NCBI RefSeq assembly: GCF_024220515.1
Contig: NZ_JAMXOT010000091.1
Location: forward strand, 1 to 32,932
From: Oscillatoria sp. HE19RPO
GTDB taxonomy: Bacteria; Cyanobacteriota; Cyanobacteriia; Cyanobacteriales; Laspinemataceae
Direction of reading: 5' to 3'
Length of the DNA stretch: 32,932 bases
Shown: positions 6,013 through 32,932 of the stretch, in pieces
Numbering within the stretch: position 1 is the stretch's first letter
Layout of the letters: every line of letters begins with the position of its first letter
Program-made: the position numbers and the translations under genes
Notes under the pieces: generated by a model
What the model saw: the letters and a program-made list of their open reading frames with translations, nothing else
The model's database searches: none
Told to the model about the DNA's origin: nothing

Positions 6013-6024
6013 AGACAAGAGGAC

Positions 6025-6894
6025 TCACAGAAGGTCATTCACAGTCGGAGCATCCGGAGGATTTTCCAGCTTATTATCTAATTTTTCTTGTAAGGAATCT
6101 AAAAAGTCTTCGATAGGACCCACTTCCGGAGTTGCAATTTTATCGAGAGCCGGTTGAAATAAGGTGTAAATCGTCTGGACTCGCTTCAAATGATAGCGTT
6201 GGCTAACCAAATCCCTCTCTAAGTCATAAATTAACCACGCAATTTCAGCTTCTTGTTCGCAGACTTCAGGCAGGGTGGGAAGAATATTATAGAACCCTTT
6301 ATGTAGGGCAACAGCTTGTTTTTTCCTCCAATTTTTTAAAATCCCTCCTTTATAAAGGAGTTGAGGAACTAACCGCTTTCGGGAAGATGATAAATAGTCG
6401 GGGCGAGGATAGTTTTTCTCTCTACTCCAGTCCATGTTATATCGATTGGTTGGATCCTCCATATAATATTCAAAAGACCGGCGAATGTTGCCGGAAATAT
6501 AGACAGACTGGACTTCTAATGCACCAAAATCAATGACTCGACCTTGACTATCGTAGGCGACTAATACTAAGTCAATATTACCAGCCGATTGTCCATTTTT
6601 ATCGTTGAGGCGAGTTTCAGCCAGAGAGGTCCAAGCTGTGTTGTCCGAAAAAAAGAATGCGGCTGCATCCTCTGCAATCAACCAATCCTCCCGAAAGCGA
6701 ACGGGACAAGTAATTGCCAGGTCCTTCCCGGCGTAAATACTACAAACCCCTAACGGATCATTGGCTTTATCCTTCGTACAAGAGGGAACTTTGTTATTGT
6801 AGGGGCAAAGCCGATGTTTCCGATAGCGTTCCGCTTCAGGGGATAAGTTGTCTATGGGAAATCCAAAAACTTCTGCCAGGGGATGTTTTGACAT
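6025..6894 (-). CDS. NotI-family type II restriction endonuclease
   Basis: A 289-residue restriction nuclease. The N-terminus (HPLAEVFGFP, then RLCPYNNKVPSCTKDKANDP and GVCS) is the signature of the NotI family. Cys30, Cys39, Cys51 and Cys63 match the four-cysteine iron-binding fold known from the NotI structure. The nuclease core is a PD-(D/E)xK variant: Asp108 in GNIDLV and Glu127-x-Gln129 in GALEVQS. The Glu-x-Gln form is also, as I recall, that of NotI. It is shorter than NotI (about 380 residues), lacking mainly C-terminal sequence. It is upstream of and co-directional with the adenine methyltransferase. Its recognition site is unknown; it probably differs from GCGGCCGC because the partner methylates adenine. 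Confidence 0.88.
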   Translation of the reverse strand: MSKHPLAEVFGFPIDNLSPEAERYRKHRLCPYNNKVPSCTKDKANDPLGVCSIYAGKDLAITCPVRFREDWLIAEDAAAFFFSDNTAWTSLAETRLNDKNGQSAGNIDLVLVAYDSQGRVIDFGALEVQSVYISGNIRRSFEYYMEDPTNRYNMDWSREKNYPRPDYLSSSRKRLVPQLLYKGGILKNWRKKQAVALHKGFYNILPTLPEVCEQEAEIAWLIYDLERDLVSQRYHLKRVQTIYTLFQPALDKIATPEVGPIEDFLDSLQEKLDNKLENPPDAPTVNDLL

Positions 6895-16207: not shown

Positions 16208-17086
16208 TTACTCTAATCCTAAGCGCCGGATATAACTCTCTACGGTATTCTGTAACAACAGGGTCACGGTCATGGGTCCAACCCCCCCTGGAACTGGGGT
16301 AATAAATCCCGCCACTTCTTTTACCGAGTCATAGTTGACATCCCCGGTTAGCCGAGATTTTCCCTCATAATCGGTGACACGGTTAATGCCAACATCAATG
16401 ACGATCGCCCCGGGTTTGACCATATCAGCGGTAATCAGTTCGGGACGTCCCACTGCCACCACCAGAATATCGGCATTGCGGGTAATTGCGCCTAAATCCG
16501 GCGATCGCGAATGCGCCATTGTCACGGTTGCATCCCCTGCCAACAACATTAAGGCGATCGGTTTACCCACTAGGATACTGCGCCCGACAATCGTTGCCTG
16601 TTTGCCTTTGGGATCAATTCCATACTCTCTCAGCAGGGCCATCACTCCGGCAGGGGTGCAACTACATAATCCCGCCTCCCCCCGCAGCAACCGGCCCAAA
16701 TTCACCGGGTGCAATCCATCCACATCTTTATCGGGATCGATATGATTGATGGCAGCAACCATATCAAGATGATTCGGTAACGGCAGTTGCACCAAAATTC
16801 CATCGACGCGATCGTCCTCGTTGAGTGCGGCGATCGCCTCCATCAATTCTTCTTGCGTCGTTTCCGTGGGGAAATGCCGTCCGTATGAGGCGATTCCAAC
16901 TTTCCCACAGGAGCGTTCCTTATTGCGAACATAAGCAGCAGAGGCGGGATTATCCCCCACCATCAAAACCGCCAACCCAGGCGGGCGGCTGGCTTTCTGC
17001 GCTAACCCTTCCACCTGCGATCGCAGTTGGCCTTGAATCTTTTCAGCGACGGCTTTCCCGTCTATAATAACGGCTGTTTTGGTCAT
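16208..17086 (-). CDS. folD: Bifunctional methylene-THF dehydrogenase / methenyl-THF cyclohydrolase
   Basis: FolD (292 residues) interconverts 5,10-methylene- and 10-formyl-tetrahydrofolate with NADP, supplying one-carbon units for purines and fMet in the cytoplasm. Landmarks: [17 protein letters not shown] with the catalytic Lys, [27 protein letters not shown], and the Rossmann segment [18 protein letters not shown]. The C-terminus has [18 protein letters not shown]. All elements are intact. It is a single-copy housekeeping gene in the neighbourhood with crtE that is typical of cyanobacteria. It is about 7 kb from folB/folK, so no operon link exists. Confidence 0.96.
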
Positions 17087-19052: not shown

Positions 19053-22031
19053 TTAATCTACGCCCTCAATCGGCGCGAATCCTTGCCGCTGGACGTTTTC
19101 ACTCACATGACGGGGTTCTAAAAATTGCAAGAGGTAATCCGGTCCCCCTGCTTTAGAACCCACTCCAGACAGTTTAAATCCACCAAAGGGTTGCCGCGCG
19201 ACGATCGCCCCGGTAATCCCTCGATTAATATAGAGATTCCCCACCTCAAACTCAGCGTAGGCGCGATCAATATGAGAAGGGGTGCGCGAATATAACCCGC
19301 CAGTGAGGGCAAAATTCGTCCCATTGGCAATGGCTAACGCTTCATCGAAATCTTTAGCCCGAATCACCGATAATACGGGACCAAAAATCTCTTCTTGGGC
19401 GATCGCCGCATCGGGTTTCACATGACTAAAAATCGTGGGTCCAATAAAATAGCCGGTTTCTGGAACTTCCATTTCTAGGACTAATTCCGCCTCTGCTTTC
19501 CCTTTAGCAACATAGCCTTGAATGCGATCGCGCGCATTGGCATCAATCACGGGTCCCACTTGGGTACTCGGTTCCTCTGCCACTCCCACATTCAGCGATC
19601 GCGTGGCTGCAACTAACCGATTCACAAAAGTTTCATACACAGGTTCTAACACAATCACCCGCGAACAAGCCGAACATTTCTGTCCACTATATCCAAACGC
19701 CGATTGCACTACCCCCGCCACTGCTGGATCGAGGTCCGCACTTTCATCCACAATCACCGCATTTTTGCCACCCATTTCGGCAATCACCTTTTTCAGGTGT
19801 TTTTGTCCCGGTTGCAAAATCGCCGCTTCTGCATAAATTTGACAGCCGACTTCTTGGGACCCGGTAAACACAATGGTATTCACATCAGGATGTTTCACCA
19901 GATGAGAACCTACGCTTGAACCTTTACAAGGGACATATTGAAAGACTCCCGAGGGAATTCCCGCTTCGACTAAAATCTCTGCAAATTTAGCAGCAATTAC
20001 CGATGAAACTTCCGCCGGTTTTAACAAGGTGCAATTTCCCGCCACTAGGGAAGCAACTGTCATCCCAACGGGAATGGCAAAGGGGAAATTCCAGGGAGAA
20101 ATGACAACGGTAATTCCCCGAGGTTGATAATGATAGCGGTTGGTTTCTCCGGCGACATCGTAATTCACGCCGCTATTGAGTCGTTCCATTTCCGAGGCAT
20201 AATAGCGACAAAAATCAATTCCCTCGGAGATTTCGGCATCACATTCCCGTAAGGGTTTGCCGACTTCTAATACCATCCAAGCGGATAATTCATGGCGGCG
20301 TTGTTCCATTAAATCTCCGGCTTTGCGAAGCAAGTTCGCCCGATCGCCTGCGGGGGTGGTTCGCCATTGGGTTAAGGCGGCTTTTGCAGCGGCGATCGCC
20401 TGATCCGCTTGTTCCACAGACATTAACCCAATTGTGCCAATCACTTCGCTGGGATTGGAGGGATTAACGGAGTTTACGGTATTCGGTGCATTAACGCGAT
20501 CGCCATTAATTAACGGCAAATAAATTTTACCCAATTGTTGACGAACTGAGGCTAATGCGGCTGCTGCTTCTTCCCGTTCTTTAATCTTGGCATAATCGCG
20601 ATCGGGTGCAGCATTGGGTAAGGCTTTGTTATGAATGGCGATCGTCTCATCCCCATCCGGTTGCGGGGGACCAATTAAACTTTCAATCGGGCGATCTTCC
20701 TGACTTTGCCGCACAAATGAACTATTGGCGGTATTTTCCAACAAGCGGCGAATTAGATACGCCATCCCCGGGAGTAAATCCCCATAAGGACAATAAACGC
20801 GCACCCGATATCCTTGTTGTACCAAGGCTTTAGCGAGTTTATCTCCCATGCCGTAAAGCACTTGCATTTCAAAGCGACGGCGCGGGATATTCAGGGTTTG
20901 GGCAATGGCGATCGCATGGGCTTGCGATCGGACATTATGAGACCCGATTGCGGCATACAAATATTCATGATTTTCTAGCAGCAACTCGGTCATTTCTTCA
21001 AAGTTAACATCGGTTGCTGCTTTGTCGTTATAAACAGGCTGCGGCCAATGTTTTTGAATGGCTTTAATGGTTTCCTGGTCCCAATATGCCCCTTTCACCA
21101 GACGCACCGTTACTGGATTTCCCCGTTCTTTGGCCCAGTCAATCAATCCTTGCAAATCTTGTTTGCTATCGCGTAAATAGGCTTGCAAAGTGACTCCAAT
21201 ATCTGTGCGACTGCGGAATTCTTCTTCCATCAGCAATCGCTTAAGAATGGACAGGGTGAGGTCTTTATAATGATACTGTTCCATATCAAAATGGACCGCT
21301 GCACCCACTGCTTGGGCGTGACGCAGGAGGGTACGAATGCGATCGATAACCCGCGCTTCACTGCCCTCCGCATCAATCGGGTCAAATTGGGAATAAAATG
21401 CTGTTAATTTGACAGAAACCTGCACTTGGGGAATAGTTTCCCCATCGGCTTCATCAATTTGAGGAACTTTAGACCATTTTTTAGCAACATCGGTGAGTTG
21501 CGTCATCAAATCTAGGTAGCGTTCCAGATAAGATTGCGCCTCAGCTTCGGTAATCACTGCTTCCCCAAGCAAGTCCATTGTAAAGGACATTTTGTCTTTG
21601 CGAAGACGTTCAATGGTTTTCAGGGCTTGCTTAATGTTTTCCCCGGAAATGTATTTTTGTGCCAGGGTTTCTACGGCAGTGGATACGGTGGTGGCGGCAA
21701 TTTGACCCGGAACTGAGTCGCCTCCACTAAACCCAATTAGTTTTTTGAGGCTGTCAGGGAGTTCGACTTCCTCGACGGTTAAATATTCTTGTAAGTGACG
21801 GGCAATTTCGGGTTTGCTTCGTAAGGCGGGGAGACAGTCAATAAAGCGAAATAGCTGGACCCGTAGACCGGGGTTGCTCATCGCCCAATCGAGTATTTTA
21901 TCATCCCAGCGCATTTGGTCTTGCAATTGGGCGAAAAATGAGCGCTTTTCCTGGGTTGCCGCCAGGAGTTGCTTGGCAATTTCTTGAGTTTTGGCTTCGT
22001 AGGTTCTGTTGTTGGACGCTTGTACTACCAC
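19053..22031 (-). CDS. putA: Bifunctional proline dehydrogenase / P5C dehydrogenase
   Basis: A 992-residue PutA-type enzyme oxidising proline to glutamate in two steps. Residues about 1-470 are the FAD-dependent proline dehydrogenase barrel, with VSVKLTAFYSQ (206-216), VRLVKGAYWDQE (309-320) and the substrate-binding RRLLENTANSSF (428-439). Residues about 500-992 are the NAD-dependent aldehyde dehydrogenase: SPWNFPFAIP, EMGGKNAVIVD, Cys786 in GQKCSAC as nucleophile, and EEIFGPVLSV. There is no N-terminal ribbon-helix-helix domain, so unlike E. coli PutA it should not repress its own gene. It is slightly shorter than the minimalist bifunctional PutA enzymes. It stands alone between the heptad array and a decayed IS. 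Confidence 0.95.
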   Translation of the reverse strand: MVVQASNNRTYEAKTQEIAKQLLAATQEKRSFFAQLQDQMRWDDKILDWAMSNPGLRVQLFRFIDCLPALRSKPEIARHLQEYLTVEEVELPDSLKKLIGFSGGDSVPGQIAATTVSTAVETLAQKYISGENIKQALKTIERLRKDKMSFTMDLLGEAVITEAEAQSYLERYLDLMTQLTDVAKKWSKVPQIDEADGETIPQVQVSVKLTAFYSQFDPIDAEGSEARVIDRIRTLLRHAQAVGAAVHFDMEQYHYKDLTLSILKRLLMEEEFRSRTDIGVTLQAYLRDSKQDLQGLIDWAKERGNPVTVRLVKGAYWDQETIKAIQKHWPQPVYNDKAATDVNFEEMTELLLENHEYLYAAIGSHNVRSQAHAIAIAQTLNIPRRRFEMQVLYGMGDKLAKALVQQGYRVRVYCPYGDLLPGMAYLIRRLLENTANSSFVRQSQEDRPIESLIGPPQPDGDETIAIHNKALPNAAPDRDYAKIKEREEAAAALASVRQQLGKIYLPLINGDRVNAPNTVNSVNPSNPSEVIGTIGLMSVEQADQAIAAAKAALTQWRTTPAGDRANLLRKAGDLMEQRRHELSAWMVLEVGKPLRECDAEISEGIDFCRYYASEMERLNSGVNYDVAGETNRYHYQPRGITVVISPWNFPFAIPVGMTVASLVAGNCTLLKPAEVSSVIAAKFAEILVEAGIPSGVFQYVPCKGSSVGSHLVKHPDVNTIVFTGSQEVGCQIYAEAAILQPGQKHLKKVIAEMGGKNAVIVDESADLDPAVAGVVQSAFGYSGQKCSACSRVIVLEPVYETFVNRLVAATRSLNVGVAEEPSTQVGPVIDANARDRIQGYVAKGKAEAELVLEMEVPETGYFIGPTIFSHVKPDAAIAQEEIFGPVLSVIRAKDFDEALAIANGTNFALTGGLYSRTPSHIDRAYAEFEVGNLYINRGITGAIVARQPFGGFKLSGVGSKAGGPDYLLQFLEPRHVSENVQRQGFAPIEGVD

Positions 22032-22268
22032 GGCTGACTTTACCCTTTTTTGAGGCTACACGACGGGTCAGGTCTCCGACGCGATCGCGCCTTTGACTGC
22101 CAAATTCAATATTATAGCTTTTTTTGAAGTTTTGTTCAAGAATAATTCCAGTTGGAAGATGAAAGTTTCTAGCATTTCTACTCAGGTTACTGAGAAATTT
22201 TAGCTCGATTTAATGCAATAAATAAGTGATAATTGTTGGAAAATAGCACGGACGGATTGCTTCTAGAA

Positions 22269-22299
22269 CTGTCGGGCGATTCGAGAATCGCCCCTACAG
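22269..22299. repeat. Relic of MITE family A core
   Basis: A partial palindrome of the form CTGTCGGGCGATTCGAGAAT followed by CGCCCCTACAG resembles the family-A core with several substitutions. No family-type ends flank it. It lies just outside the IS that begins at 22331. Confidence 0.5.
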
Positions 22300-22672
22300 A
22301 GATTGGGTTCGGTTGGGAAATATGATTAAGTAGGGTTTGCTGAAAAAGTTATAAAAAGCAGGGGGGTAAATGAACAAGAGGCCCATCTTCCTGCACCAAT
22401 AAACATAGCTTTGTCCAAATTTCCCTTCAATTTCGTTGCGAATGCGCTCGTCTTCTTGGGAAAAGTTTTTTAGCTTGAAGGCTGACTTGGGTTCGCGGTC
22501 TCCCTAATGGAGGACCACGCTCGCCTAATTCCTCTTTCTTTACACCAAGCTCGATTGACTCAGGTGCGATAAATTTTATCAGCGTGAACCGATTCCGGGT
22601 AAACTCCCGTCAATTCTTTGTACGCCTCTACTTGACTAATAAAATCTCCACTTTCATTATACTTTTCCCTTC

Positions 22673-22796
22673 TTATACGGAATCCGGTTGGAATCGGTCT
22701 ATCAAAACCCACAGGCTGAAGCCTGGGGCCATACGGACAAAGCCCGCCTGCGCGGGCTCAAAGCGAAAACCGACTTTTACCAACCGGATTTGGTAT
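22673..22796. repeat. MITE family B inside the IS
   Basis: Imperfect terminal inverted repeats: TATACGGAATCCGGTTGG on the left and CCAACCGGATTTGGTATTA on the right. The interior has AGGCTGAAGCCT and AGCCCGCCTGCGCGGGCT hairpins. It interrupts the transposase sequence and abuts the next MITE directly. Confidence 0.65.
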
Positions 22797-22934
22797 TAGA
22801 CCTCTTGCAAAATTCTAAAAAGCCCCCGGTGGAACTAAACATTTATTCCGCTGGCCTCCCCCTTGGGAAGGGGGACGGGAGGGGGATAATCAGGGGGGTT
22901 GGGGGGATCAATCCGTTATTTTGCAAGAGGTCTA
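22797..22934. repeat. MITE family C inside the IS
   Basis: Perfect 17-bp terminal inverted repeats TAGACCTCTTGCAAAAT (22797-22813) and ATTTTGCAAGAGGTCTA (22918-22934) enclose a G+C-rich centre with CCCCCTTGGGAAGGGGG-type hairpins. If the ends are counted from AGACCTC, a 3-bp ATT flank is repeated on both sides. It splits the transposase reading frame just before the C-terminal part. Confidence 0.85.
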
Positions 22935-24067
22935 TTATTTTTCGAGGAATAAATATCCTTCTACACAACTGACTGATAATTTGGCTCCGAATTCCGTAGG
23001 ACTTCCTGATTTACCTCGGACGATTGGACGGACATGAGGTTGTGTTAAACTGACAATCCGATGGTCGATTCTTTTTTGATTATTTGACCACATCAAATCC
23101 TGTTGACGATAAATTCCGACTGAGACTAATAAATTCCTGTATTGCCTTCTGCTTAAGAGTTTTAGACTGGCATTTTGAACGATTAACTTGTCAATATGCG
23201 CCAAATTTAGTTTGATATATTGCAGTTTTTTTTAACGGCTTCTCTCCTTCGTTTTCCCGAGAGTTTCCTATTTTTAGAAAATTTTAAATAATCTTTTCTG
23301 GCCTTTTTTCTGTAATTTCTCTGTTTTTTGTCTAGGTTATCCTTCAAGGATTTATATAAGAGGTCTATGATGCTTTCGGTAGTTTTTCTCGCGCTTATTT
23401 AATAGGTTCACATCCGTGGGGTATTTGATATCCCCTGGGGCAACCGTTACATCCATTAATAGCCCGCCTCTATTTCCTTGTGGTTTTTAGGCTTCTTCTA
23501 ACTTTTTTGTGCTGGGGTTTTCCGGATTAAATTCTAGGCTTTGTTGAACAATTTTGAAATTAATTTTTTGAAGCAGATCCGGACTAATTTTTTGACAAAA
23601 ATGAACCATCATTGAAGGGTCAAAAGGTGCTTCATCTTGATAACTATTTCGTCCAATAAAATACTGTAAATAAGGATTTTATTGGATTTGTTTAACTGCT
23701 GTAATGAGCTTCAATTTTTATTTGATGATTAAAGCGGCCAGGGCTATCCTAAAAGATTTGGCTGGCGCTCCCATGTCTTCTGAGAAATTCTGGGCATATT
23801 CTGCCTCAAAGAAGGACCACGGAATTAGCTTCGACAGAACAATCCACCGATTTTCTTCACACCGCTGCCCTAATGAGGGAAGTTCAAAGGCTTCTTCTGG
23901 TCCCAGAGGGTTTTGTGATTTTCGATACATTTTCCCTTCACCGATGCACAACACTTTCCAATTTTACCGCTTTTTCCTGTATTTTGTGTCCGGGCAAGAC
24001 TTCTACAAGCCTTGTACAGTAAGCTTGTTGCTTTTTTTCAGCAAGCCCTATCTATAATGTTGCTCCT

Positions 24068-24457
24068 TTAAAACGACTCTTCCTTCGAGCGGATAATTTC
24101 CACGGCAATTTGACCGGGAAAATTGGGAATGGGTGGTGAAACTTTGGTGAGGCGAACGCGAATTTTGCTGACGCGATCGCATTCGAGAACCGAACGGCCA
24201 ATCTGCGTTGCCAGATATTCGATTGTATTTACTTTAGACGTTTCGATGCAATTTTGCACCCGCTCGACCACTTGCCGATAATCCAAAGTCTCTTCCAGCA
24301 GATCGCTCTTTCCCACCGCCAATAAATCTACCCACAGGGTCAAATCTACGTCAAACCATTGGCCGAGAAACCGCTCCTCAGCAAAATACCCCGTATAGCC
24401 GTAATACCGCAGCCCCGTTATTTCGAGCGCGTCCATTTTTTCCACAGATTTGTCCAT
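24068..24457 (-). CDS. folB: Dihydroneopterin aldolase
   Basis: A 129-residue FolB converting 7,8-dihydroneopterin to 6-hydroxymethyl-7,8-dihydropterin and glycolaldehyde. Landmarks: LEITGLRYYGYTGYFAEER at the start, LDYRQVVERV, the pterin-binding Glu in TIEYLATQIG, and the catalytic Lys in RLTKVSPPIPNFPGQIAVEI. The start at 24457 has a CAGGA-like element upstream; Met at 24436 (MDALEIT) is an alternative giving 122 residues. It lies 76 bases downstream of folK on the same strand, so the two consecutive steps are probably one transcript. It may feed both folate and the adjacent pterin-like cluster (inference). Confidence 0.94.
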   Translation of the reverse strand: MDKSVEKMDALEITGLRYYGYTGYFAEERFLGQWFDVDLTLWVDLLAVGKSDLLEETLDYRQVVERVQNCIETSKVNTIEYLATQIGRSVLECDRVSKIRVRLTKVSPPIPNFPGQIAVEIIRSKEESF

Positions 24458-24533: not shown

Positions 24534-25031
24534 CTAGCTTAATTTCAGGGGTAAGCTGACGCCAGAGCGATCTACTTTTTCAAGCAGTTGAGCGATCGCC
24601 TCTCCCGAAACAGGGTCGATCCAGTTCGGAACAATTTCTGCCAAGGGTACTAAAACAAACGCCCGTTCTCTCATGCGCGGGTGTGGGAGTTGCAATTCGG
24701 ATGTTTCCAGAATTAAATCCCCAAATAAAAGAATATCTAAATCTAAGGTTCGCGGTCCCCAACGTTCTTGACGGATGCGACCAAACTGCCGTTCAATGTT
24801 GAGCAGAACCTTAAGTAGTTCTTGAGGATTGAGCTGTACTTCTAACAGAGCGCAGCCGTTGAAGTAATCGGGTTGTGACGGGCCTATGGGTGCAGTTTTG
24901 TACCAAATTGATCGCTTTTTTAACTCAATTCCCGGAGTGCGATCGAGAATTGCCAGGGCAGATTCTAAGGTAGATCTGGAGTCACCCAAATTACTGCCAA
25001 GGCCGATCGCCGTCATTGTACTCGTTAGCAT
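24534..25031 (-). CDS. folK: 6-hydroxymethyl-dihydropterin pyrophosphokinase (HPPK)
   Basis: A 165-residue HPPK transferring pyrophosphate from ATP to 6-hydroxymethyl-7,8-dihydropterin, giving the electrophile used by dihydropteroate synthase. Landmarks: AIGLGSNLGDS near the start, WYKTAPIGPSQPDYFNG, the catalytic loop region RQERWGPRTLDLDIL with the magnesium aspartates, and LPHPRMRERAFVLVPL. The protein is complete. It precedes folB in a two-gene unit, and its upstream side faces the 2OG-oxygenase gene of the divergent cluster. The last ~250 bases of this gene are duplicated, with divergence, at 32314-32561. Confidence 0.95.
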   Translation of the reverse strand: MLTSTMTAIGLGSNLGDSRSTLESALAILDRTPGIELKKRSIWYKTAPIGPSQPDYFNGCALLEVQLNPQELLKVLLNIERQFGRIRQERWGPRTLDLDILLFGDLILETSELQLPHPRMRERAFVLVPLAEIVPNWIDPVSGEAIAQLLEKVDRSGVSLPLKLS

Positions 25032-25317: not shown

Positions 25318-26247
25318 TTATTTTAATTCCTTAGCCCTTCCCGCTCCTTCATAGGTTTCCCAAATTGATGCAAAATTTTTCAACATCACTTCTTGAGAAC
25401 TAATTTTTTCCTTTGTGCCCAATGGTTCGATGATAGTCTCAATATTTGGATACACAAAGAAGGGAATTGATATGCGACTAGACCTGGAGTGAGTGTGAAT
25501 CACTTCATGGGGCGTACTGACAAATAAGCCATTCGTCCATAGTTGTAACATATCCCCCAAATTAATGACCAACGCATTTTTCATACAGGCTGCATCTATC
25601 CATTCTTGTTTAGCATGAACTTTCAAAGAAGGTTCGGGAAAGTATTCTTGGATCAAAACAGTAAAAATTCCGTTATCCGTATGTTTTCCGGCTCTCCCAA
25701 ACCCAGCGGGATAATAAATCGTGCGATGAATTAATACCGGATCCGTAAAATATTTCTCGAACCAGTTCGGTTGTAATCCTAAAGCCAAAGCCAACCCTTT
25801 GAGTAATTTAGGGACAACTTTTGTCATAATTTCATTCTGTAGGCGATAGTGAGCGCTGGCAAACCCAGGAGCTATGCCCTCATCAGGCACGAGGGTTGGC
25901 CCGGTAAACGGTCGATCGCAAAGTTCTTTTTCTATACCGAAGTCAAAAACTTCTTTAGGATCGAAACCGACTTCTTGATGCAGAAATTCTCCATATAACG
26001 GGACGTAACCTCTGGAATTTTTTGGATAAACTTTTTGGAGTTCTTGGCGGTAGTTGAGTTTGATTTCTTCCGGGAGTTCAAAAAAAATTCTTGAGGCAGA
26101 AATGGTCTGATTGACGACGGCTGGGGGAACTCCGTGATTAATGAGATAAAAAAAACCATGTTCGTAACAGGCGTCGTATAGTTTCTTAACTTCGCGCTCG
26201 CTCGGTTGAGCTAAATCTGACAGAGAAATTATGGGTAGAGTCTTCAT
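25318..26247 (-). CDS. 2-oxoglutarate/Fe(II) oxygenase, isopenicillin-N-synthase-like
   Basis: A 309-residue non-haem iron oxygenase of the isopenicillin N synthase / plant 2-ODD superfamily. The N-terminal DIOX_N part has LPIISLSDL and YEHGFFYLINHGVP. The double-stranded beta-helix carries the iron ligands His189 and Asp191 in GKHTDNG and His247 in STPHEVIH, and Arg258-x-Ser260 in RSSRISIPFF to bind 2-oxoglutarate. These enzymes hydroxylate, desaturate or cyclise small molecules. The substrate is unknown. It is the last gene of the leftward arm (dehydrogenase, methyltransferase, oxygenase), 111 bases after the methyltransferase, and 286 bases from folK. A late tailoring step on a pterin-like product is my inference. 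Confidence 0.9.
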   Translation of the reverse strand: MKTLPIISLSDLAQPSEREVKKLYDACYEHGFFYLINHGVPPAVVNQTISASRIFFELPEEIKLNYRQELQKVYPKNSRGYVPLYGEFLHQEVGFDPKEVFDFGIEKELCDRPFTGPTLVPDEGIAPGFASAHYRLQNEIMTKVVPKLLKGLALALGLQPNWFEKYFTDPVLIHRTIYYPAGFGRAGKHTDNGIFTVLIQEYFPEPSLKVHAKQEWIDAACMKNALVINLGDMLQLWTNGLFVSTPHEVIHTHSRSSRISIPFFVYPNIETIIEPLGTKEKISSQEVMLKNFASIWETYEGAGRAKELK

Positions 26248-26358
26248 AAATTAGTGGATTCATTTGTTAAATTACGCAATTTTCGGGGTCAAATAAATAT
26301 GGTATAGCGCGTGCGACTTTCTCCATTACCCCAACGTCCATTACAGCTTACCTGTGGA

Positions 26359-27042
26359 TTAACAAACGACAAAACCCCAATAATGAGCGCCTTCTTCTAT
26401 GATATAAGGACTATTCATCTCGTAGCTGAGGAGCTTGACTTTCCCTTCTTCCTGCAAGCCGTCACAAACTTTTTGAAAATCGCTACTTTCGTAATAACTT
26501 TTGCGGGTACTGACGACAACCCAGCCACCCGGTTTAGTCACTCGGATGAGTTCTAAAAGGGCAGTGGGGGGCACATGACCCAGGGTGAATACACCGCAAC
26601 AAATTGTCGCATCGTACTGATTGTCCTTGTACGCTTTATTTTTGCGGGTCATATCGATGCTACTATTGAGCGATCGGTAAACACCTGTTTTTTCGGCTTT
26701 CTGTATCATTCTGGGAGACAAGTCAAACCCATCAATGTTGTGATAACCTTTCCGATGGAGTGCCACACCCACTAAACCCGTACCGCACCCTGCATCCAGG
26801 ATTTCGATGTGGCGATCGCTGGAATCTACCACTTGTATTCCATTGTGACTTTCCAGTCTTGCAAAATAATCGACAATGTATTCCGGGCCTAAATATTTTT
26901 CATTAAACACATCCCGGTTGTAAGTGGGAGCCCATTTATTGTAGTAACCCCGTATTTTTCCGGGAATGCCGGACAGAGCGTGAGCTTCTTTTATCGCATC
27001 AAAACTTTCAATTCTTTCAATTTCTATCGCTTTATTTTTCAT
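26359..27042 (-). CDS. SAM-dependent methyltransferase, METTL27/WBSCR27-like
   Basis: A 227-residue class I methyltransferase. Motif I is ILDAGCGTGLVGVAL (81-95), followed by the acidic residue of motif II in GFDLSPRMIQKA (Asp107). ICCGVFTLGHVPPTALLELI and KPGGWVVVSTR are the later strands. The N-terminal YYNKWAPTYNRDVFNEKYLG is typical of the WBSCR27/METTL27 branch, whose small-molecule substrates are unknown. The start has only a weak purine element. It is the middle gene of the leftward arm, 166 bases after the dehydrogenase. It could O-, N- or C-methylate the product of the neighbouring enzymes; the substrate is not deducible from sequence. Confidence 0.9.
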   Translation of the reverse strand: MKNKAIEIERIESFDAIKEAHALSGIPGKIRGYYNKWAPTYNRDVFNEKYLGPEYIVDYFARLESHNGIQVVDSSDRHIEILDAGCGTGLVGVALHRKGYHNIDGFDLSPRMIQKAEKTGVYRSLNSSIDMTRKNKAYKDNQYDATICCGVFTLGHVPPTALLELIRVTKPGGWVVVSTRKSYYESSDFQKVCDGLQEEGKVKLLSYEMNSPYIIEEGAHYWGFVVC

Positions 27043-27208
27043 TATGATGTTCTTTCAGTCTCCACTACTTTTAGTTGATTGTCTGTTTACTTTCCCACGC
27101 TGAATTCTCTAAAAAAACTCTAAAAAAGCCAAGTGCTAGTCACCGATCGCGACACCAAGCGCCCACCCAGCCTAAACAGCCTTCTTAGAATTACACTTGT
27201 CTCTGTAT

Positions 27209-28549
27209 TTAAGCCACCTCCTGCTGGGCCGATGCTTCCAGTACCGCCATCATTTTCATTAAGCTGGGTATTTTCAGATTTATGTCCAAATTCATCTGCT
27301 TAACTTGACAAATAATGCCGGGATTGGGTTGATAGCTTTGGTGATTATCGAAAACCCAACTTTTACCACAACTCCATCGGATTGTCTCAGTGACAAGATC
27401 TAAACTCAATCCCATATTTTTGCCGAGTTTATATGCTTCTTGTAGGACGACATAATTGACATAAGCCATCAACTCTGTAAGTAATTCTGCAAGTTCGACC
27501 GAACCCGTATCTATATTCACTATAGGGGGTTTTTCATAATGCAGTTGATAGGGAAACGGTTTGACTCGTCCATATTTATCTGTTACTAAAACATCTGAAC
27601 GGACGTAATTGGGGTTTGCTCCATATCGAGACGGAGCGGTATAGCCCGGTATCCTCAATTCTAGATTGTTTTCTTCTTCAACCAATTTACTTATCGTCAT
27701 GTGACCGACTTGGGAATCGTATTGTTGACCGGCTTGACGATACCGTTCTTCTACGATTCTACCAATCGGTATTGCCACATTCAGTTCATCTGCTAACTTT
27801 ACCGTTAAGTCCGTATCCTTGACGGTAATTTCTAACGTACAAGACCTGTCATAGCTCCCATCAAATATAAAAGGTGAAAATTGCTCGGCTACACAACTAT
27901 ATCCTTTTGAGGCCAGGATAAATTCCCACATCCATTTTAAGCCAATGCCATGAGCTTGAGCGATAATAAAAACTTCGGACAGCACGATTGCTGCTGCATA
28001 AAATAGCGAATTCGTTAGCAACTTTACGGTCTGGGCTTTGCCGATATTTTCATCAACAAAAAATGAGATTTGCCCCATCGCCTCCAAAACATCTTTGCTT
28101 AAATCGTAACCTCTGCGATCGCCACTGACGTAAAAACTGACATTCCCAAAATCCACTCCCATGTGCGACAAATTGCTCAGGGGGGCTTCCAAACTATAAA
28201 TTCCTCGTTCTGCGGCTACATCGGCAATATGTTTGGTATTGTGATAATCGGTAGTTGATGTGTCAATCCATGTAGTACCCGCCTGCATTCCTTCAATTGC
28301 ACCATTTTCGCCTAACATATTTTCTAACACATGATGAGGCAAGGGCAAACAAGTAATGACAACGTCGCAGTTTCTAGTCGCTTCTTTGGGAGTATCGACC
28401 CATCTGGCTCCTGCCGCGACTACTGTTTCTGCTGCTTGTTTGTATTTGTCGTAAACGTTAACGGAGTAGCCTTTTTCTAGCAATTTAAAAATCATCGGGC
28501 GACCCATTGCACCCGTCCCAATGAAGCAGACCCTGTTCATTTTATTCAT
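27209..28549 (-). CDS. Over-long beta-hydroxyacid dehydrogenase (HIBADH-like)
   Basis: A 446-residue NAD(P)-dependent dehydrogenase of the 3-hydroxyisobutyrate/6-phosphogluconate family, about 150 residues longer than usual. The cofactor loop is FIGTGAMGRPM (9-19). Lys176 and Asn180 in KLLTN match the catalytic Lys and Asn. The substrate motif normally DAPVSGG is EAPLSNLS here (121-128). After the standard helical domain (165-290) and a linker, residues 350-446 look like a second helical domain: VELAELLTELMAYVNYVVLQ, with EAYKLGKNMGLSLDLV aligning to SEVFIIAQAHGIGL of the first. GGAG lies five bases before the ATG. It is the first gene of the leftward arm. Confidence 0.88.
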   Translation of the reverse strand: MNKMNRVCFIGTGAMGRPMIFKLLEKGYSVNVYDKYKQAAETVVAAGARWVDTPKEATRNCDVVITCLPLPHHVLENMLGENGAIEGMQAGTTWIDTSTTDYHNTKHIADVAAERGIYSLEAPLSNLSHMGVDFGNVSFYVSGDRRGYDLSKDVLEAMGQISFFVDENIGKAQTVKLLTNSLFYAAAIVLSEVFIIAQAHGIGLKWMWEFILASKGYSCVAEQFSPFIFDGSYDRSCTLEITVKDTDLTVKLADELNVAIPIGRIVEERYRQAGQQYDSQVGHMTISKLVEEENNLELRIPGYTAPSRYGANPNYVRSDVLVTDKYGRVKPFPYQLHYEKPPIVNIDTGSVELAELLTELMAYVNYVVLQEAYKLGKNMGLSLDLVTETIRWSCGKSWVFDNHQSYQPNPGIICQVKQMNLDINLKIPSLMKMMAVLEASAQQEVA

Positions 28550-29076
28550 CTGGTCTCCAGTATTCGTTTTGAGAATTAAGATAAAAACTTACTTTTTCAT
28601 CACCTTTACCGTTTTTAGGGTATCAATCTGCGGTAGCTAAACCTGGAAATGATGCCGAACTCGATGCATTGGCCGAGGGATAAAGTTTTTTCTACTTTTC
28701 CCCCAATTTTCTGTCTAGTTTTCATCGCCCTACGACATAACCTAGCTCCCCAACTCGCGAATTTGCGCGATCGCATCTGGTGAATCTCCTCCCTCGACAT
28801 CGAACTGTCAGTATTGAGAGGGGATTCCTCTCGGTCCTAGGGAGCCAGCCGAAGCCAATCTTCCATTTTCCCCATTGGAAATCTCCGGTTGGCGATCGCA
28901 AGAGTGCAGATGTAGTTTACCATAACCCCATCAGCCTCGCGCAACAGCTACAGATATAGCCCCTTGGAGAGCGGCAGTACAGTGGATCTCTGCCCGCCCA
29001 TTCGCGATACTCTGGTTGACTGACAAATCCCAAATACCCTAATCTAATTGCCGACCAAGCACTTTCATGAAAAACA
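28550..29076. promoter_or_regulatory. Divergent promoter region of the cluster
   Basis: These 527 bases separate the leftward (dehydrogenase) and rightward (Nudix) arms, so both transcripts should start here. It holds two GCGATCGC-like sites (28767 and 28892 areas). I see no clear operator repeat and could not place a convincing -35/-10 pair. A 61-codon minus-strand frame at 28615-28800 has no similarity and is not accepted as a gene. Confidence 0.45.
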
Positions 29077-29556
29077 ATGCAAAATCAAACCCCCATCGTC
29101 CCTTTAACCGTTCAAAAACAATTTCCCTTGCCTACTGTAGGCGCATTGGTTGCTAACCGGAAGAGACAAGTTTTGATTGTGAAAACGACTAAATGGACGG
29201 GCAGGTGGGGCGTACCGGGCGGTAAAGTAGAATGGGGTGAAAGCTTAGAATCGGCATTGCTCAGAGAGTTTCAAGAAGAAGTGGGTTTAGAGTTGAGTGA
29301 AATCCGCTTTGCCTTATTACAAGAAGCCGTGAAAGATCCACAGTTTTTGTATGAAGCCCATTTTATCATGGTAAATTATTATGCAGTGTCAGAAAGCGAG
29401 GCGATCGCGCCCAACGAGGAAATTGAAGAATGGGCATGGGTGACTCCCGAAGAAGCCCTTTCATATCCCCTAAATACCTATACTCGGGTGTTGATTGAAG
29501 ACTATCTCCACAGGGAAATCAATTCTGTACAAAGCAACCATCAAGAACCATGCTGA
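29077..29556 (+). CDS. Nudix hydrolase
   Basis: A 159-residue Nudix pyrophosphohydrolase. The Nudix box is exact at residues 49-71: Gly49, Glu55, then REFQEEVGL (63-71), fitting GX5EX7REUXEEXGU. The fold also shows VGALVANRKRQVLIV before it and EEWAWVTPEEALSYPL after it. Such enzymes cut X-linked nucleoside diphosphates; one branch (FolQ/NudB type) removes pyrophosphate from dihydroneopterin triphosphate, the step before FolB. The context with folB, folK and a DHPS-like gene makes that assignment attractive but unproven. Its TGA overlaps the SDR start (ATGCTGA at 29550-29556), indicating translational coupling. Confidence 0.92.
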   Translation: MQNQTPIVPLTVQKQFPLPTVGALVANRKRQVLIVKTTKWTGRWGVPGGKVEWGESLESALLREFQEEVGLELSEIRFALLQEAVKDPQFLYEAHFIMVNYYAVSESEAIAPNEEIEEWAWVTPEEALSYPLNTYTRVLIEDYLHREINSVQSNHQEPC

Positions 29557-30269
29557 AAAAAGCGCTTGTCACCGGCTCGGCAAGAGGAATAGGCAGAGCG
29601 ATCGCTCTGAATCTAGCCACCCAAGGATTTGATATCGCATTTCATTACAATAAAAGCGCTGACTTAGCAACACAAGCCGCTCAACAAGCCGCAACCTTTG
29701 GAGTCAAATCCATTGCCCTACAAGCCGATATTACCAACCCAGAAGCGGCTCGATCGCTCGTGGAAAAGGCAGGAGAACAACTTGGTGGCTTATCAATGGT
29801 TGTTAATAATGTGGGCAACTATGTGGAAAAACCGATCGCCCAAACTTCCTTGCAGGAGTGGCATGAAATGCTAGATTCCAACCTCAATGCCACCTTCTAT
29901 GTCACTCAAAGCGCAATTCCTTACCTCAAAGCAGCCGGTTGGGGAAGAATCGTGAATTTTGCCTATGCGGCTGCCCAACATTCGATCGCCGGGAATCAAG
30001 AAACCGCCTATAGAATTGCTAAAATGGGGATTATTCTTTATAGTAAATCTTTGGGAAAAGAGTTGATTGGCGACAACATCACCGTCAATGTCGTGTCTCC
30101 AGGCGTGGTAGAAAATTCGATAGGTTTAGAGGAAACTATCCCCCTACTGCCCGCTCAGCGAGCGGCAACTTTGCAAGAAATCTGCAATGCAGTGGGGTTC
30201 TTTATCAGTCCAGCATCGGATTACATTACCGGCCAAATTTTGGAAGTAGCTGGGGGCTGGATGTTATAA
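29550..30269 (+). CDS. Short-chain dehydrogenase/reductase, atypical active site
   Basis: A 239-residue SDR with TGSARGIG (8-15) for NADP(H), NNVGN (86-90), and Tyr154-x3-Lys158 in AYRIAKMG. The usual catalytic Ser, three residues after the Asn in RIVN(I/M)SS, falls on Tyr139 in RIVNFAYAAAQ, so the serine appears missing. Pteridine reductases (PTR1) also lack it, having Asp at that place. The end TGQILEVAGGWML is standard. FabG-like enzymes reduce keto groups, and PTR1/FolM relatives reduce dihydropterins. Given its coupling to the Nudix gene and the DHPS-like gene 99 bases downstream, reduction of a pterin or a side-chain ketone is a reasonable inference. Confidence 0.9.
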   Translation: MLKKALVTGSARGIGRAIALNLATQGFDIAFHYNKSADLATQAAQQAATFGVKSIALQADITNPEAARSLVEKAGEQLGGLSMVVNNVGNYVEKPIAQTSLQEWHEMLDSNLNATFYVTQSAIPYLKAAGWGRIVNFAYAAAQHSIAGNQETAYRIAKMGIILYSKSLGKELIGDNITVNVVSPGVVENSIGLEETIPLLPAQRAATLQEICNAVGFFISPASDYITGQILEVAGGWML

Positions 30270-30368
30270 CCGGGCTGCGATCGCTTCCCCTACATTTTGC
30301 TAAATTCGTCTTGCAATTGTAACATTTTTTCATGTAAACTTACTATTATCGATTTCAGGAGGTTCAAA

Positions 30369-31274
30369 ATGCTGACACTCAAAGATCTTTATGAAGTATA
30401 TGAGAAACATCAGGAGGATTATGATGTTCAGGTAGAAGAGTTCACCATTGGAAATAAACATTTTAACTTTAATTCTCAACCCAGTATTTTAGGAGTGATT
30501 AATCTTTCTGTGGATTCTTGGTGGAATCATTCAATTTGTTATACCACAGAACAAGCAGTGCGTCGAGGTAAGGTGTTAACGGCTCAAGGTGCTGACATCA
30601 TCGATATTGGTACGGAAGCGAGTTCAAAAAATACCCAGAGAGTGGATGAGTTGAAACAAACAAGTCAGTTGTTGCCTCTGCTGGAAACGTTCCATCAAGA
30701 AGGTATTTTGACTTCAGTTGAAACTTATTATCCTGAAGTTGCTAAAGAATGTTTGAAATGCGGTGCCAATGTCATTAACTTTATTGGCATCGAAAACAGC
30801 GAAGAAATGTATCGAGTCGTGGCTGATTTTGATGCAGCGATCGTTATCTGCTATCTCCAAGGAAAACACCCGAGAGATTTAGGTGAATTCGACTTTAATT
30901 TAGCTGAGGATCCAATCGATGTTTTATATGATTATTTTGGCAAAGAAATAGAAAAAGCGACTAAAGTTGGCGTCAAGAAAATTTTTGTCGATCCGGCAGT
31001 GGGTTTGGGTTACAGCAATTTCTACTATCAATACAAATATGTAGCCAGTCGGATGAAATATCAAATCGGCATGATGTTAAATGCTTTTCGACTGAGAAAG
31101 TTAGGGTTTCCCGTTTTCAATCACATTCCCGAAGCCTTGGAAGTGTTTGGAGAGGAAGTCAGAACGGCTCAAGTTTTTGCTGGCGTATTTGCCGCATTAG
31201 GAAAAACCGATATGCTCAGAACCCATGAAGTGGCTAAAATTAAAGCGATGTTAGAAATTATGAGTCTCATCTAA
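30369..31274 (+). CDS. Dihydropteroate-synthase-like pterin-binding protein
   Basis: A 301-residue TIM-barrel of the DHPS/pterin-binding superfamily. The start at 30369 is fixed by AGGAGG at 30358-30363; a frame from 30297 would add 24 residues without sense. Pterin-site positions are kept: Asn45 in GVINLSVDS, Asp79 in DIIDIGTEAS, Asn137 in ANVINFIG, Asp208 in FVDPAVGLG, and the C-terminal Arg274-x-His276. But Asp of SVDT is Glu118 (SVETYYPEV), the DPG(I/F)GFGK Lys is lost, and the SRKS loop that holds Ser and Lys for p-aminobenzoate is replaced by FPVFNHIPEA (237-246). It is thus unlikely to be the housekeeping FolP. It may join a pterin to another nucleophile, or bind methyl-tetrahydrofolate like MetH/AcsE domains. 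Confidence 0.88.
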   Translation: MLTLKDLYEVYEKHQEDYDVQVEEFTIGNKHFNFNSQPSILGVINLSVDSWWNHSICYTTEQAVRRGKVLTAQGADIIDIGTEASSKNTQRVDELKQTSQLLPLLETFHQEGILTSVETYYPEVAKECLKCGANVINFIGIENSEEMYRVVADFDAAIVICYLQGKHPRDLGEFDFNLAEDPIDVLYDYFGKEIEKATKVGVKKIFVDPAVGLGYSNFYYQYKYVASRMKYQIGMMLNAFRLRKLGFPVFNHIPEALEVFGEEVRTAQVFAGVFAALGKTDMLRTHEVAKIKAMLEIMSLI

Positions 31275-31344
31275 AATTGTTCGCTCTAAAAGGGGTTCAT
31301 CGCAACAGCAGAAACCAACCAATCTGGAATTGACGAGGATAGAG

Positions 31345-32304
31345 ATGAAAAGAGCGATCGCGATTATCGGAGGCGGAGCGGCGGGTATGTCTTGCGCGCT
31401 CTGGTTGAAACATCTCGGTTTTTACCCGATTCTCATCGACAAACGCGATCGTCTAGGAGGCTCGCAAAATATTAATCCTTTTCACAATACATGGTATTTG
31501 GGAATGTATGGCAAGACAGGAAAGGAGATGGCGGGTGACTTTTGCCGCCATATTGAGGTGGAATCGATCCCGACTCTGTTAGGCGATCGCGTGCAAACCA
31601 TTACCCGGAACGGGGATTTTAAGCTTCGCACGGGAAAGCATGAAATTACAGTACAAGGGATAGTGATTGCCACAGGTCAACGATTTAAAAGAGAAGAAGC
31701 GATCGCAGAAATTCCCGGAAGCGATCGGCTGACTTTATCAAAATCGGTGTATTTTAATCCGGGGATAATTCCGATAACTCACGGACAAGTTGTCGCGATT
31801 GTGGGTGGGGGCGATAACGGACTCTCGCTCGCCACAATGCTGGCAGATACTGCGAAACAGGTTCACCTATTCGTCCGCTCTGAAATCCGAGCATTCGGGA
31901 GCTATCAACAACAGGTTTTTGAATATATAAAGGCGGGTAAAATTACCCTGCACAAACCGGCCAACATTCATCGCTTTGAACTGTGCGGCGATCGCATTGA
32001 TATGGCTTTTCAAGCCGGAAATAACTCGGAACAAGAACTACGGGTTGACTCTCTGTGCTTTCGTCTGGGGTTTACACCCAATGCAGAGGAGATCGTTCAA
32101 CTGTTCGAGAAAGGCGGCGTGGGTTGTCTCGAACTCAATCCCCAGGGATATATCAAAACCGATGAATTTCTGCGTACCTCAATTCCGAAGGTTTACGCGG
32201 CGGGAGACGTGACAAATCCTCGCGACCCTTGCGTAGCAACAGCCGTCGCTGCCGGTGCCATTGCAGCGCGAAGCTTGGACGAGGATTTGCAACGAGAACT
32301 GTAG
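31345..32304 (+). CDS. TrxR-like FAD/NAD(P)H oxidoreductase without CxxC
   Basis: A 319-residue two-dinucleotide-fold flavoprotein of the thioredoxin reductase class. FAD binding: AIIGGGAAGMSCALWL at the start and VYAAGDVTNP near the end. NAD(P)H binding: VVAIVGGGDNGLSLATML. The redox CxxC that thioredoxin reductases carry in the NAD(P)H domain is absent, as in ferredoxin-NADP reductase-type and natural-product oxidoreductases. The start at 31345 follows GAGGATAGAG; a TTG at 31330 would add five residues. It is the last gene of the rightward arm, 70 bases after the DHPS-like gene. It could oxidise or reduce a small molecule, or pass electrons to a partner; the substrate is unknown. Confidence 0.9.
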   Translation: MKRAIAIIGGGAAGMSCALWLKHLGFYPILIDKRDRLGGSQNINPFHNTWYLGMYGKTGKEMAGDFCRHIEVESIPTLLGDRVQTITRNGDFKLRTGKHEITVQGIVIATGQRFKREEAIAEIPGSDRLTLSKSVYFNPGIIPITHGQVVAIVGGGDNGLSLATMLADTAKQVHLFVRSEIRAFGSYQQQVFEYIKAGKITLHKPANIHRFELCGDRIDMAFQAGNNSEQELRVDSLCFRLGFTPNAEEIVQLFEKGGVGCLELNPQGYIKTDEFLRTSIPKVYAAGDVTNPRDPCVATAVAAGAIAARSLDEDLQREL

Positions 32305-32313
32305 TTTACTTCA

Positions 32314-32561
32314 TGGGTAAGCTCACGCCAGAGCGATCGACTTTTTCAAGCAGTTGAGCGATCGCCTCTCCCGAAACAGGGTCGATCCAATTCGGAGCAA
32401 TTTCTGCCAAGGGTACTCAAACAAACGCCCGTTCTTTCATGCGCGGGTGCGGGATTTGCCATTCCGATGTTTCCAGAATTAAATCCCCAAATAAAAGAAT
32501 ATCTAAATCTAAGGTTCGCCGTCCCCAACGTTCTTGACAGATGCGACCAAACTGCCGTTCA
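32314..32561 (-). pseudogene. folK 3'-fragment, second copy
   Basis: These bases are colinear, without gaps as far as I can align them by eye, with 24548-24795 of the intact folK, and only about one base in fifteen differs. The stretch around 32475-32515, covering the GPRTLDLDIL-coding region, is almost unchanged. The fragment lacks the first half of the gene and ends abruptly where the IS fragment begins, so it is non-functional. It has the same orientation as the intact gene. The small frame at 32346-32528 is a shadow of it, equivalent to the same shadow frame in the real folK. Confidence 0.9.
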
Positions 32562-32932
32562 ATACGGATTTTCTTGGATTTGTTCAACTGCTGTACTAAT
32601 ACCCAATTTTTCTTTGATGATTAAAGCGCTCATTGCTATCCGAAAAGATTTGGCTGGTGCCCCCAATACTTGCAGAAAAATTTTGGGCATATTCTGACTC
32701 AAATTCAGACTCCCGGAATTAGCTTGGATAGAACTATCCACCGATTTTCTTCACACAGCTGGCCCTGAAAGGGTAGTTCAAAGGATTCTTCTGGCCCCAA
32801 GGCATTTTATGATTTTTGATACATTTTTCCTTGAATAATGCACAATAATTTCCAATTTTACCTCTTTTTCCTGTCTTTTGTGTCCGGGCAAGACTTCTAC
32901 AAGCCTTGTAACATCAGCATTTCGCTTTTTTT
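32562..32932 (-). mobile_element. Fragment of the same IS5/IS1182-like element, second copy
   Basis: This sequence matches 23672-24030 of the decayed IS: minus-strand peptides LGAPAKSFRIAMSALIIKE and EEIQENPY-type VEQIQENPY are the transposase N-terminal region, followed by the same untranslated segment (GTCCGGGCAAGACTTCTACA) near the element end. The inner boundary at 32562 lies inside the transposase gene, fused to the folK fragment. The outer end runs past the window. It carries stop codons and is dead. It has the same orientation as the left copy. Confidence 0.85.

Follow-up and report, generated by a model that had tools for sequence, protein, structure and literature searches.

The locus described here raises the question of whether a dihydropteroate synthase (DHPS)-like protein that lies close to folB and folK in Oscillatoria sp. 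HE19RPO belongs to folate synthesis, to a dedicated pterin pathway, or to neither. The window analyzed is the whole 32,932-nucleotide stretch (NCBI RefSeq contig NZ_JAMXOT010000091.1), which is the entire contig C44 of the draft source genome G000 (511 contigs; G, C and L denote genomes, contigs and loci). An initial annotation had proposed that seven enzymes in two divergent arms jointly form a pterin pathway. Results are consistent with this proposal for the right arm, which together with folB and folK recurs as a pterin gene set and very probably represents a dedicated pterin pathway: the residues on the p-aminobenzoate side of the DHPS-like protein are lost, the pterin and pyrophosphate sides are kept, and the co-occurrence of the genes is conserved. 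The left arm, in contrast, was without the DHPS-like gene in its vicinity at each of the 11 other loci examined. The features concerned are as follows.

24068-24457, minus strand: folB, dihydroneopterin aldolase, extra copy (TIGR00525, 79.1 bits versus cut-off 72.15)
24534-25031, minus strand: folK (HPPK), extra copy (TIGR01498, 144.9 bits versus cut-off 54.1)
25318-26247, minus strand: 2-oxoglutarate (2OG)-Fe(II) oxygenase of the DIOX_N type, left arm (Pfam DIOX_N/2OG-FeII_Oxy)
26359-27042, minus strand: class I methyltransferase, left arm (Pfam)
27209-28549, minus strand: beta-hydroxyacid dehydrogenase of 446 amino acids (aa), left arm (PF03446 NAD_binding_2 and PF14833 NAD_binding_11, two stretches)
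28550-29076, no strand: divergent intergenic region of 527 bp between the arms
29077-29556, plus strand: Nudix hydrolase, right arm, probable FolQ by context (PF00293 NUDIX)
29550-30269, plus strand: short-chain dehydrogenase/reductase (SDR), TmpR-type dihydropteridine/dihydrofolate reductase, right arm (Pfam SDR; NF012208, 374.1 bits)
30369-31274, plus strand: DHPS-like protein of clade I, right arm, proposed pterin pyrophosphate transferase (PF00809 Pterin_bind, E 3.7e-29; residues; tree)
31330-32304, plus strand: FAD/NAD(P) oxidoreductase (flavoprotein), thioredoxin reductase kin without CxxC (PF07992 Pyr_redox_2)
32309-32569, minus strand: broken remnant of a third folK, TGA-interrupted (88% to residues 77-163 of the window folK)

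All seven open reading frames of the initial annotation were recovered at the same positions and strands, the 527-bp gap between the arms was borne out, and the family assignments were confirmed by Pfam and NCBIfam, with folB and folK beside the cluster both scoring above NCBIfam cut-offs. The DHPS-like frame as listed spans 30297-31274 and opens at a TTG at 30297; the starts of orthologues favor the inner ATG at 30369.

The DHPS-like protein scored 112.6 bits against TIGR01496 DHPS, below the cut-off of 162.6 (127.4 bits for the Roseibium relative described below), and 39.6-61.6 bits against the Sul models, whose curated cut-offs are 475-600. Active-site positions were compared across 37 DHPS-like sequences (36 rows from 34 cyanobacterial genomes, plus Roseibium) and 10 valid canonical FolP rows representing 9 distinct genes, C_L015 and C_G004folP being the same gene and the wrong-strand row C_L016 being dropped. 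Columns were taken from the alignment, with E. coli residue numbers and a motif mapping that we assumed. The copies of G042 (broken by a stop) and G696 (a 229-aa frame) fall outside this residue count. Asn22, Asp56, Asn115 and Asp185 were kept in all 37 proteins, and Arg255 and His257 in all 36 with letters there, the row of G700 ending earlier. The Asp96 position held Glu in 32 and Asp in 5, and the Thr62 position Thr in 31 and Ser in 6. His257 and Arg255 of DHPS serve pyrophosphate binding; the MetH of G000, the one MetH judged and recognized by eye, has Pro/Ala at the Arg255/His257 positions. Arg63, Lys221 and Ser222 were each present in 0/37 DHPS-like proteins; in canonical FolP, Lys221 and Ser222 occurred in 10/10 rows and Arg63 in nine, with Lys in the remaining one. 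In an independent profile-profile alignment the SRKS motif was likewise lost, with no Lys-Ser in the DHPS-like protein. The initial annotation had described a lost p-aminobenzoate loop. No deletion was observed, the length being unchanged in the alignment, but Arg63-Pro64-Gly65 are rewritten and Lys221-Ser222 are lost as well.

The roles of most of these positions are described in PMC3098144 and PMC10328974. In the Burkholderia DHPS product complex (renumbered to E. coli), ligand contacts are made by the counterparts of Asn115, Asp185, Asp96 and Thr62; the Lys221 counterpart touches pterin O4 and N5, the Ser222 counterpart holds the carboxylate of p-aminobenzoate, and the Arg255 counterpart packs against the pterin and forms a pair with Asp56. 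In E. coli DHPS a sulfonamide lies between Lys221 and Arg63 (PMC3098144). The Lys is retained in both Sul1 and Sul2, and the Ser in Sul2 (PMC10328974). Since the pterin and pyrophosphate residues are kept and Arg63, Lys221 and Ser222 are lost, the DHPS-like protein appears to bind pterin pyrophosphate, its second site having been rebuilt. Judged from its sequence, it may join a new nucleophile to the pterin, and it is fairly likely that the enzyme is a transferase with a nucleophile other than p-aminobenzoate.

To establish how widely this gene set occurs, the DHPS-like protein was searched for in other genomes. At E <= 1e-49 it was found in 7/59 genomes, its own included (G000, G053, G055, G030, G035, G028, G042). 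A ten-protein profile (E <= 1e-40) detected it in 35 of 388 genomes of the order, representing 18 of 149 genera, and in 5/388 genomes of the class. Named carriers include Prochloron didemni, four Okeania metagenome-assembled genomes (MAGs), a Hormoscilla MAG and UBA2566. The gene was present in none of the seven congeners, and 6 other members of the family that were listed also lack it. Thirty-six loci, the window included, were examined for partners, representing 34 of the 35 order carriers (G674, a broken fragment, being omitted) together with G061 and G320. The DHPS-like gene was accompanied by the SDR at 35 loci, folK at 29, Nudix at 20, an EgtD-like methyltransferase at 16, and folB and a QueD/PTPS-family protein at 12 each; rarer partners were the flavoprotein (10), a methyltransferase of another group, c8 (7), a MurL-like PP-loop protein (7) and SurE (6). 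Distances from the DHPS-like gene were at most 0.9 kb for the SDR and 6.4 kb for folK. At the seven loci without folK (G042, G405, G504, G610, G435, G518, G700) the DHPS-like gene was about 1.2 kb or less from a contig end. The stretch read for G405 covered 1.7 of 6.7 kb, so that its same-contig Nudix is outside the count of 20, and no folK was found anywhere in its genome. Gene order and strand vary widely among loci while linkage is kept, suggesting selection for linkage rather than mere descent. The EgtD-like methyltransferase was found at E <= 1e-60 in 17/340 genomes of the order, all 17 of which carry the DHPS-like gene (kinship ignored). The initial annotation had marked co-occurrence of the DHPS-like, SDR, Nudix and long dehydrogenase genes for checking; linkage of the DHPS-like, SDR and folK genes recurs across many genera.

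Outside the cyanobacteria, a 49-kb plasmid of the alphaproteobacterium Roseibium porphyridii carries consecutive genes for FolB, a DHPS-like protein and an SDR (L115 13489-15645). This DHPS-like protein (32.5% identity over 97%, E 8e-47) was the one clear plasmid relative; the 9 further plasmid rows listed, out of at least 5000 records, had 25.5-27.8% identity, and no further plasmid was retrieved at E <= 1e-25 with the Roseibium protein as query. The Roseibium folB scored below its equivalog cut-off, and the SDR was nearest to PRK09134 (below cut-off), not TmpR. The plasmid row adjoins hydroxyproline-type catabolic genes. With the Roseibium query, phage matches at E <= 1e-15 comprised 8 records, the 5 listed having approximately 30% identity; none of 142 viral pattern stretches checked encodes a relative.

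Phylogeny of the DHPS-like proteins, constructed with a midpoint root and with the wrong-strand canonical row C_L016 still in the tree, yielded two clades, two METHYLTRANSFERASES. The window protein falls in clade I (14 rows, support 99/99); clade II comprises 21 rows (support 98/100), and D_G474 belongs to neither, branching close to the root as drawn. Among the 19 genomes that carry clade II alone, the EgtD-like methyltransferase is present in 17 and c8 in 0; among the 12 with clade I alone, the EgtD-like protein was seen in 0 and c8 in 6, the EgtD-like search having left out G061 and perhaps also G444, G457 and G435. In G504 (L095) and G657 (L099) both clades occur in tandem, each DHPS-like gene with its own SDR, and at no locus were two of the three methyltransferase kinds found together. 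This split suggests that the two clades would serve two partner molecules. The EgtD-like methyltransferase is EgtD-like and not EgtD: the member of G320 scored 64.8 bits against TIGR03438 EgtD (cut-off 290.9), and that of G028 scored 71.1 bits against PF10017 (cut-off 23). The Okeania sets of G651 and G622 also hold PanD, gamma-butyrobetaine-dioxygenase-like proteins and a tandem methyltransferase with a first half akin to sarcosine/dimethylglycine methyltransferases, the latter two resemblances being below cut-off; together these suggest that the partner is a methylated amino acid or betaine. None of 10 flavoproteins of the cluster, including that of the window, has a CxxC motif, so this protein is not an ordinary thioredoxin reductase. 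The MurL-like PP-loop protein (445-498 aa, with SGGKES-like and CxxC motifs; L025 10529-11953 and six further loci) is carried with clade II in all cases except G515. Its 474-aa member had no Pfam match at 1e-5, scored 76.7 bits against MurL (cut-off 700), and had no PDB relative, the single match being at E 0.7.

The electrophile for such a transferase would be supplied by folB, folK and the Nudix hydrolase. Both genes of the window are extra copies in G000, the other folB being on C148 and the other folK on C214. Of six congeners searched, five have a single folB, and none was found in G001. The C214 folK is 90% identical to those of two congeners, G004 and G007, and its flanks match the G004 folK flanks in length and order (678/679, 341, 500, 648/644 and 227 aa, judged by length). 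With only 131 aa (L057 121-516) it diverges from the congeners near the contig end and may be truncated or an assembly artifact. The window folK shares 66.7% identity with the C214 copy and 68% with that of congener G007, compared to 74.7-78.9% with the six nearest cluster folK and 63-67% with further cluster rows among those listed. Being nearer to cluster folK than to the other folK of its genome, the window copy was probably acquired from outside the genus and arrived with the cluster; folB may also have come from outside. The folK remnant at 32309-32569 lies just right of the flavoprotein, the same convergent position in which Hormoscilla (L039) has an intact folK. In seven other cluster genomes (G055, G030, G035, G028, G396, G061, G320) the cluster copy is the sole folK found. 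The possibility raised by the initial annotation that folB and folK are only chance neighbors did not hold, given the extra copies here and the cluster position of the only folK detected in those seven genomes.

The Nudix subfamily of the window was present in 49/340 genomes, including cluster-free ones. Among seven cluster-free genomes checked for Nudix context, the gene was near folB or folK in six: by match coordinates it lies 1.2-1.4 kb from folB in G002, G003, G004, G006 and G007, and 86 bp from folK in G012. The exception is the draft G001, where Nudix and folK are on different contigs and no folB was found. A second Nudix copy of G000 is on C281, a separate contig from the second folB on C148. 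Although the window protein scored only 21.4 bits against NF006961 (FolQ/NudB; cut-off 103), the adjacency of its subfamily to folB and folK in cluster-free genomes makes it a good FolQ candidate, and by gene context it is probably the dihydroneopterin triphosphate pyrophosphatase. The FolQ step is described as uncharacterized in Synechocystis (PMC7133116), and this subfamily offers a candidate for that step of cyanobacterial folate synthesis.

The SDR passes the curated cut-off of NF012208 ('TmpR, bifunctional dihydropteridine reductase/dihydrofolate reductase'; 374.1 bits versus 325), a family that we take to be named after the Tm8-3 enzyme. At E <= 1e-60 this model matched 9/9 cluster genomes versus 0/13 others (p 2e-6, kinship ignored), and the SDR glycine motif and YxxxK were present in all 39 cluster SDR rows longer than 220 aa. 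Tm8-3, a TmpR-type enzyme, reduces dihydrofolate (PMC3675766). The cluster SDR, unlike Tm8-3, belongs with a biosynthetic set built around a DHPS-like protein, suggesting a dihydropterin conjugate as its native substrate. For the TmpR reductase, known as a trimethoprim-resistance find, the cluster also offers a native context open to testing. A FolA-type dihydrofolate reductase was above cut-off in just 1/22 cyanobacterial genomes searched, and none was found in G000.

The initial annotation had also called for a check that this genome has a separate canonical folP. A second, canonical-type FolP match (25-28% identity to the query, as for FolP in the remaining genomes) is present in 4/7 genomes with the DHPS-like gene (G053, G055, the single-contig G028, and G035), but in G000 none was detected and the expected site falls at a contig end. 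In congener G004, folP was recognized by eye approximately 1.2 kb after tpiA; the tpiA of G000 sits among repeats where contig C380 ends, and neither folP nor the next gene was found. The simplest reading is an assembly gap, although folP may also be truly absent. A housekeeping FolP role for the DHPS-like protein was set aside.

From these data we infer the reaction, its order, the horizontal movement and the roles of the accessory genes as follows. The right arm with folB and folK would be a horizontally moving cyanobacterial route to a non-folate C6-substituted tetrahydropterin. The FolQ-like Nudix, FolB and FolK would convert dihydroneopterin triphosphate into 6-hydroxymethyl-7,8-dihydropterin pyrophosphate, which the DHPS-like enzyme would bind as DHPS does, with pyrophosphate leaving and a pterin cation forming. 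Its rebuilt second site would present the nucleophile that replaces p-aminobenzoate, the conjugate would be brought to the tetrahydro state by the TmpR-type SDR, and the partner would be made or finished by a methyltransferase that is interchangeable, EgtD-like alongside clade II and of other types alongside clade I. A more speculative extension, which we regard as possible but not probable, is that the product represents a third class of one-carbon/redox cofactor beside folate and methanopterin in cyanobacteria and some alphaproteobacteria, namely a tetrahydropterin with a methylated amino-acid-type side chain for which the DHPS family swapped p-aminobenzoate, with two clades for two partners.

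Several observations weigh against a dedicated non-folate pathway. Only the DHPS-like protein and MetH match PF00809 in G000, with no canonical folP found in the draft, and G030 and G042 likewise show the DHPS-like gene and no canonical folP. Nudix and folB accompany the DHPS-like gene at only 20 and 12 of the 36 loci, respectively, and in several carriers (e.g. G651, G580, G622) a Nudix relative is on another contig. At 11 of the 36 loci no member of the three methyltransferase groups was seen, several of these being cut by contig ends; the window is among the 11, its own methyltransferase not having been merged into the three groups. Co-occurrence statistics ignore relatedness, and the Roseibium protein branches between canonical FolP and the cyanobacterial DHPS-like proteins. 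Since Lys221 also touches the pterin, its loss may reflect an altered pterin, e.g. a tetrahydro form, either in addition to an altered nucleophile or in its place. An AlphaFold model built with 8 sequences (mean predicted local distance difference test 41.6, predicted template modeling score 0.40) was too low in confidence for the pocket to be read and bears on it neither way.

Three genes of the window, the left arm, could also have belonged to the same pathway, as the joint proposal held. The 446-aa dehydrogenase was found in 18/388 genomes, and 11 of the 17 other loci were fetched. The DHPS-like gene was absent from the stretch at all 11, although 8 of these genomes have both, whereas relatives of the window methyltransferase and of the window oxygenase (61-74%) were each present at 8/11. 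Many of these loci (L128-L138) also hold a Zn-type alcohol dehydrogenase and an enolase-superfamily protein, named by eye. Since the two are separated at every one of the loci fetched, a single seven-gene pathway is unsupported; the left arm is a different module that is beside the cluster only in the window among the loci read. The Okeania tandem methyltransferase is distantly related, through its C-terminal half, to the window methyltransferase.

Other explanations were weighed against a dedicated pterin pathway. It is unlikely that the set is a second folate branch in which the DHPS-like enzyme, with an unusual pocket, still uses p-aminobenzoate and the SDR acts as dihydrofolate reductase, either under inhibitors or in place of a missing FolA. 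TmpR-type enzymes do reduce dihydrofolate (PMC3675766), and the rarity of FolA above cut-off, with none found in G000, and the lack of a detected canonical folP there would fit such a branch. Yet Arg63, Lys221 and Ser222 are gone in 37/37 proteins, whereas the Sul enzymes retain Lys and Sul2 also Ser (PMC10328974). Moreover, a canonical-type folP coexists with the DHPS-like gene in four of seven genomes, all seven congeners manage without the latter, and the six of them tested lack TmpR. We know of no step in folate synthesis that the strictly co-occurring EgtD-like methyltransferase would fit. That the DHPS-like protein instead binds tetrahydropterin or methyl-tetrahydropterin as a one-carbon or methyl carrier, similar to the pterin domain of MetH, or serves as a pterin sensor is rather improbable. 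Membership in the Pterin_bind superfamily, the loss of Lys221 (the donor to dihydropterin N5) and the methyltransferases in the set agree with a carrier, but Asn22, Arg255 and His257 are kept (37, 36 and 36 rows), the latter two being absent from the G000 MetH, and folK, the maker of the pyrophosphate, is the commonest partner after the SDR.

For the left arm to make or tailor the pterin partner, so that all seven genes form one pathway, appears quite doubtful. The dehydrogenase shares 12/18 of its genomes with the DHPS-like gene (Fisher p 5e-10, kinship ignored), and a loose functional tie is therefore possible; Okeania pterin sets contain other 2OG oxygenases, methyltransferases and PanD, and the window is without an EgtD-like or c8 methyltransferase, so that its own methyltransferase could fill that place. 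The separation at the fetched loci argues the other way, as do G508, where the two genes are 3.3 Mb apart on the same contig, and the 6/18 dehydrogenase genomes that are without the DHPS-like gene. Chance proximity would account for the left arm meeting the right arm only in the window among the loci read. For folK, the SDR and the DHPS-like gene it is refuted by recurrent linkage, since SDR and folK adjoin the DHPS-like gene in many genera in shuffled orders and the TmpR-type SDR and EgtD-like gene strictly co-occur in the genomes searched; as an explanation of the whole it is exceedingly improbable.

The dedicated pterin pathway was further compared with known systems. Canonical FolP (TIGR01496) shares with the DHPS-like protein the Pterin_bind family, the pterin and pyrophosphate residue positions, and folB and folK as partners, but the DHPS-like protein has an N-terminus approximately 17 residues longer than congener FolP (26% identity), lacks Arg63, Lys221 and Ser222, and is below the DHPS cut-off. 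Actinobacterial FolP2 is likewise a second DHPS-like protein outside folate synthesis: M. leprae FolP2 fails to complement a folP mutant, and FolP2 clusters with cell-wall genes (PMC1971073). The cyanobacterial set differs in having its own electrophile supply and reductase, and PDB 2vp8 ('dihydropteroate synthase 2') was no closer to the window protein than other DHPS. Sul1-Sul4 are also divergent mobile DHPS with a remodeled second site, but p-aminobenzoate is still their substrate, and the Lys is retained in Sul1 and Sul2 and the Ser in Sul2 (PMC10328974). The Photorhabdus pepteridine cluster is another dedicated pterin gene set, in which a pteridine reductase, a pyruvoyltetrahydropterin synthase and a pteridine pyrophosphokinase lead to a tetrahydropterin natural product (PMC5384830); it differs in its non-ribosomal peptide synthetase-like acyl transfer, and the word dihydropteroate is nowhere in the text of that paper. 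Cyanobacterial pterin glycosides (PMC13259868) are non-folate cyanobacterial pterins as well, but are glycosides, and no glycosyltransferase is among the annotated shared cluster families.

The component families are known, while the gene combination and the second site of the DHPS family appear to be new; no publication on the gene set was found in open-licence texts, judged by titles and abstract starts. Few antibiotic targets are as old as DHPS, which to our knowledge uses only p-aminobenzoate-type amines. If the proposed pathway is true, a DHPS family with a kept pterin side and a rebuilt amine side widens known pterin chemistry, points to a new pterin in Prochloron, Okeania, Hormoscilla and others, and could yield a new vitamin-like cofactor or natural product.

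Further features of the window were noted. The 527-bp gap at 28550-29076 had no Rfam match up to E 1, hence no riboswitch, and no repeats of at least 20 nt. No direct repeat of at least 20 nt was found in 22031-24067, and one CRISPR direct-repeat family match, slightly below the gathering score, lies at 22736-22759. A folD gene (tetrahydrofolate dehydrogenase/cyclohydrolase) is located at 16208-17086, approximately 7 kb left of folB. At 4888-6894 a D12-class DNA methyltransferase adjoins a NotI-family restriction endonuclease.

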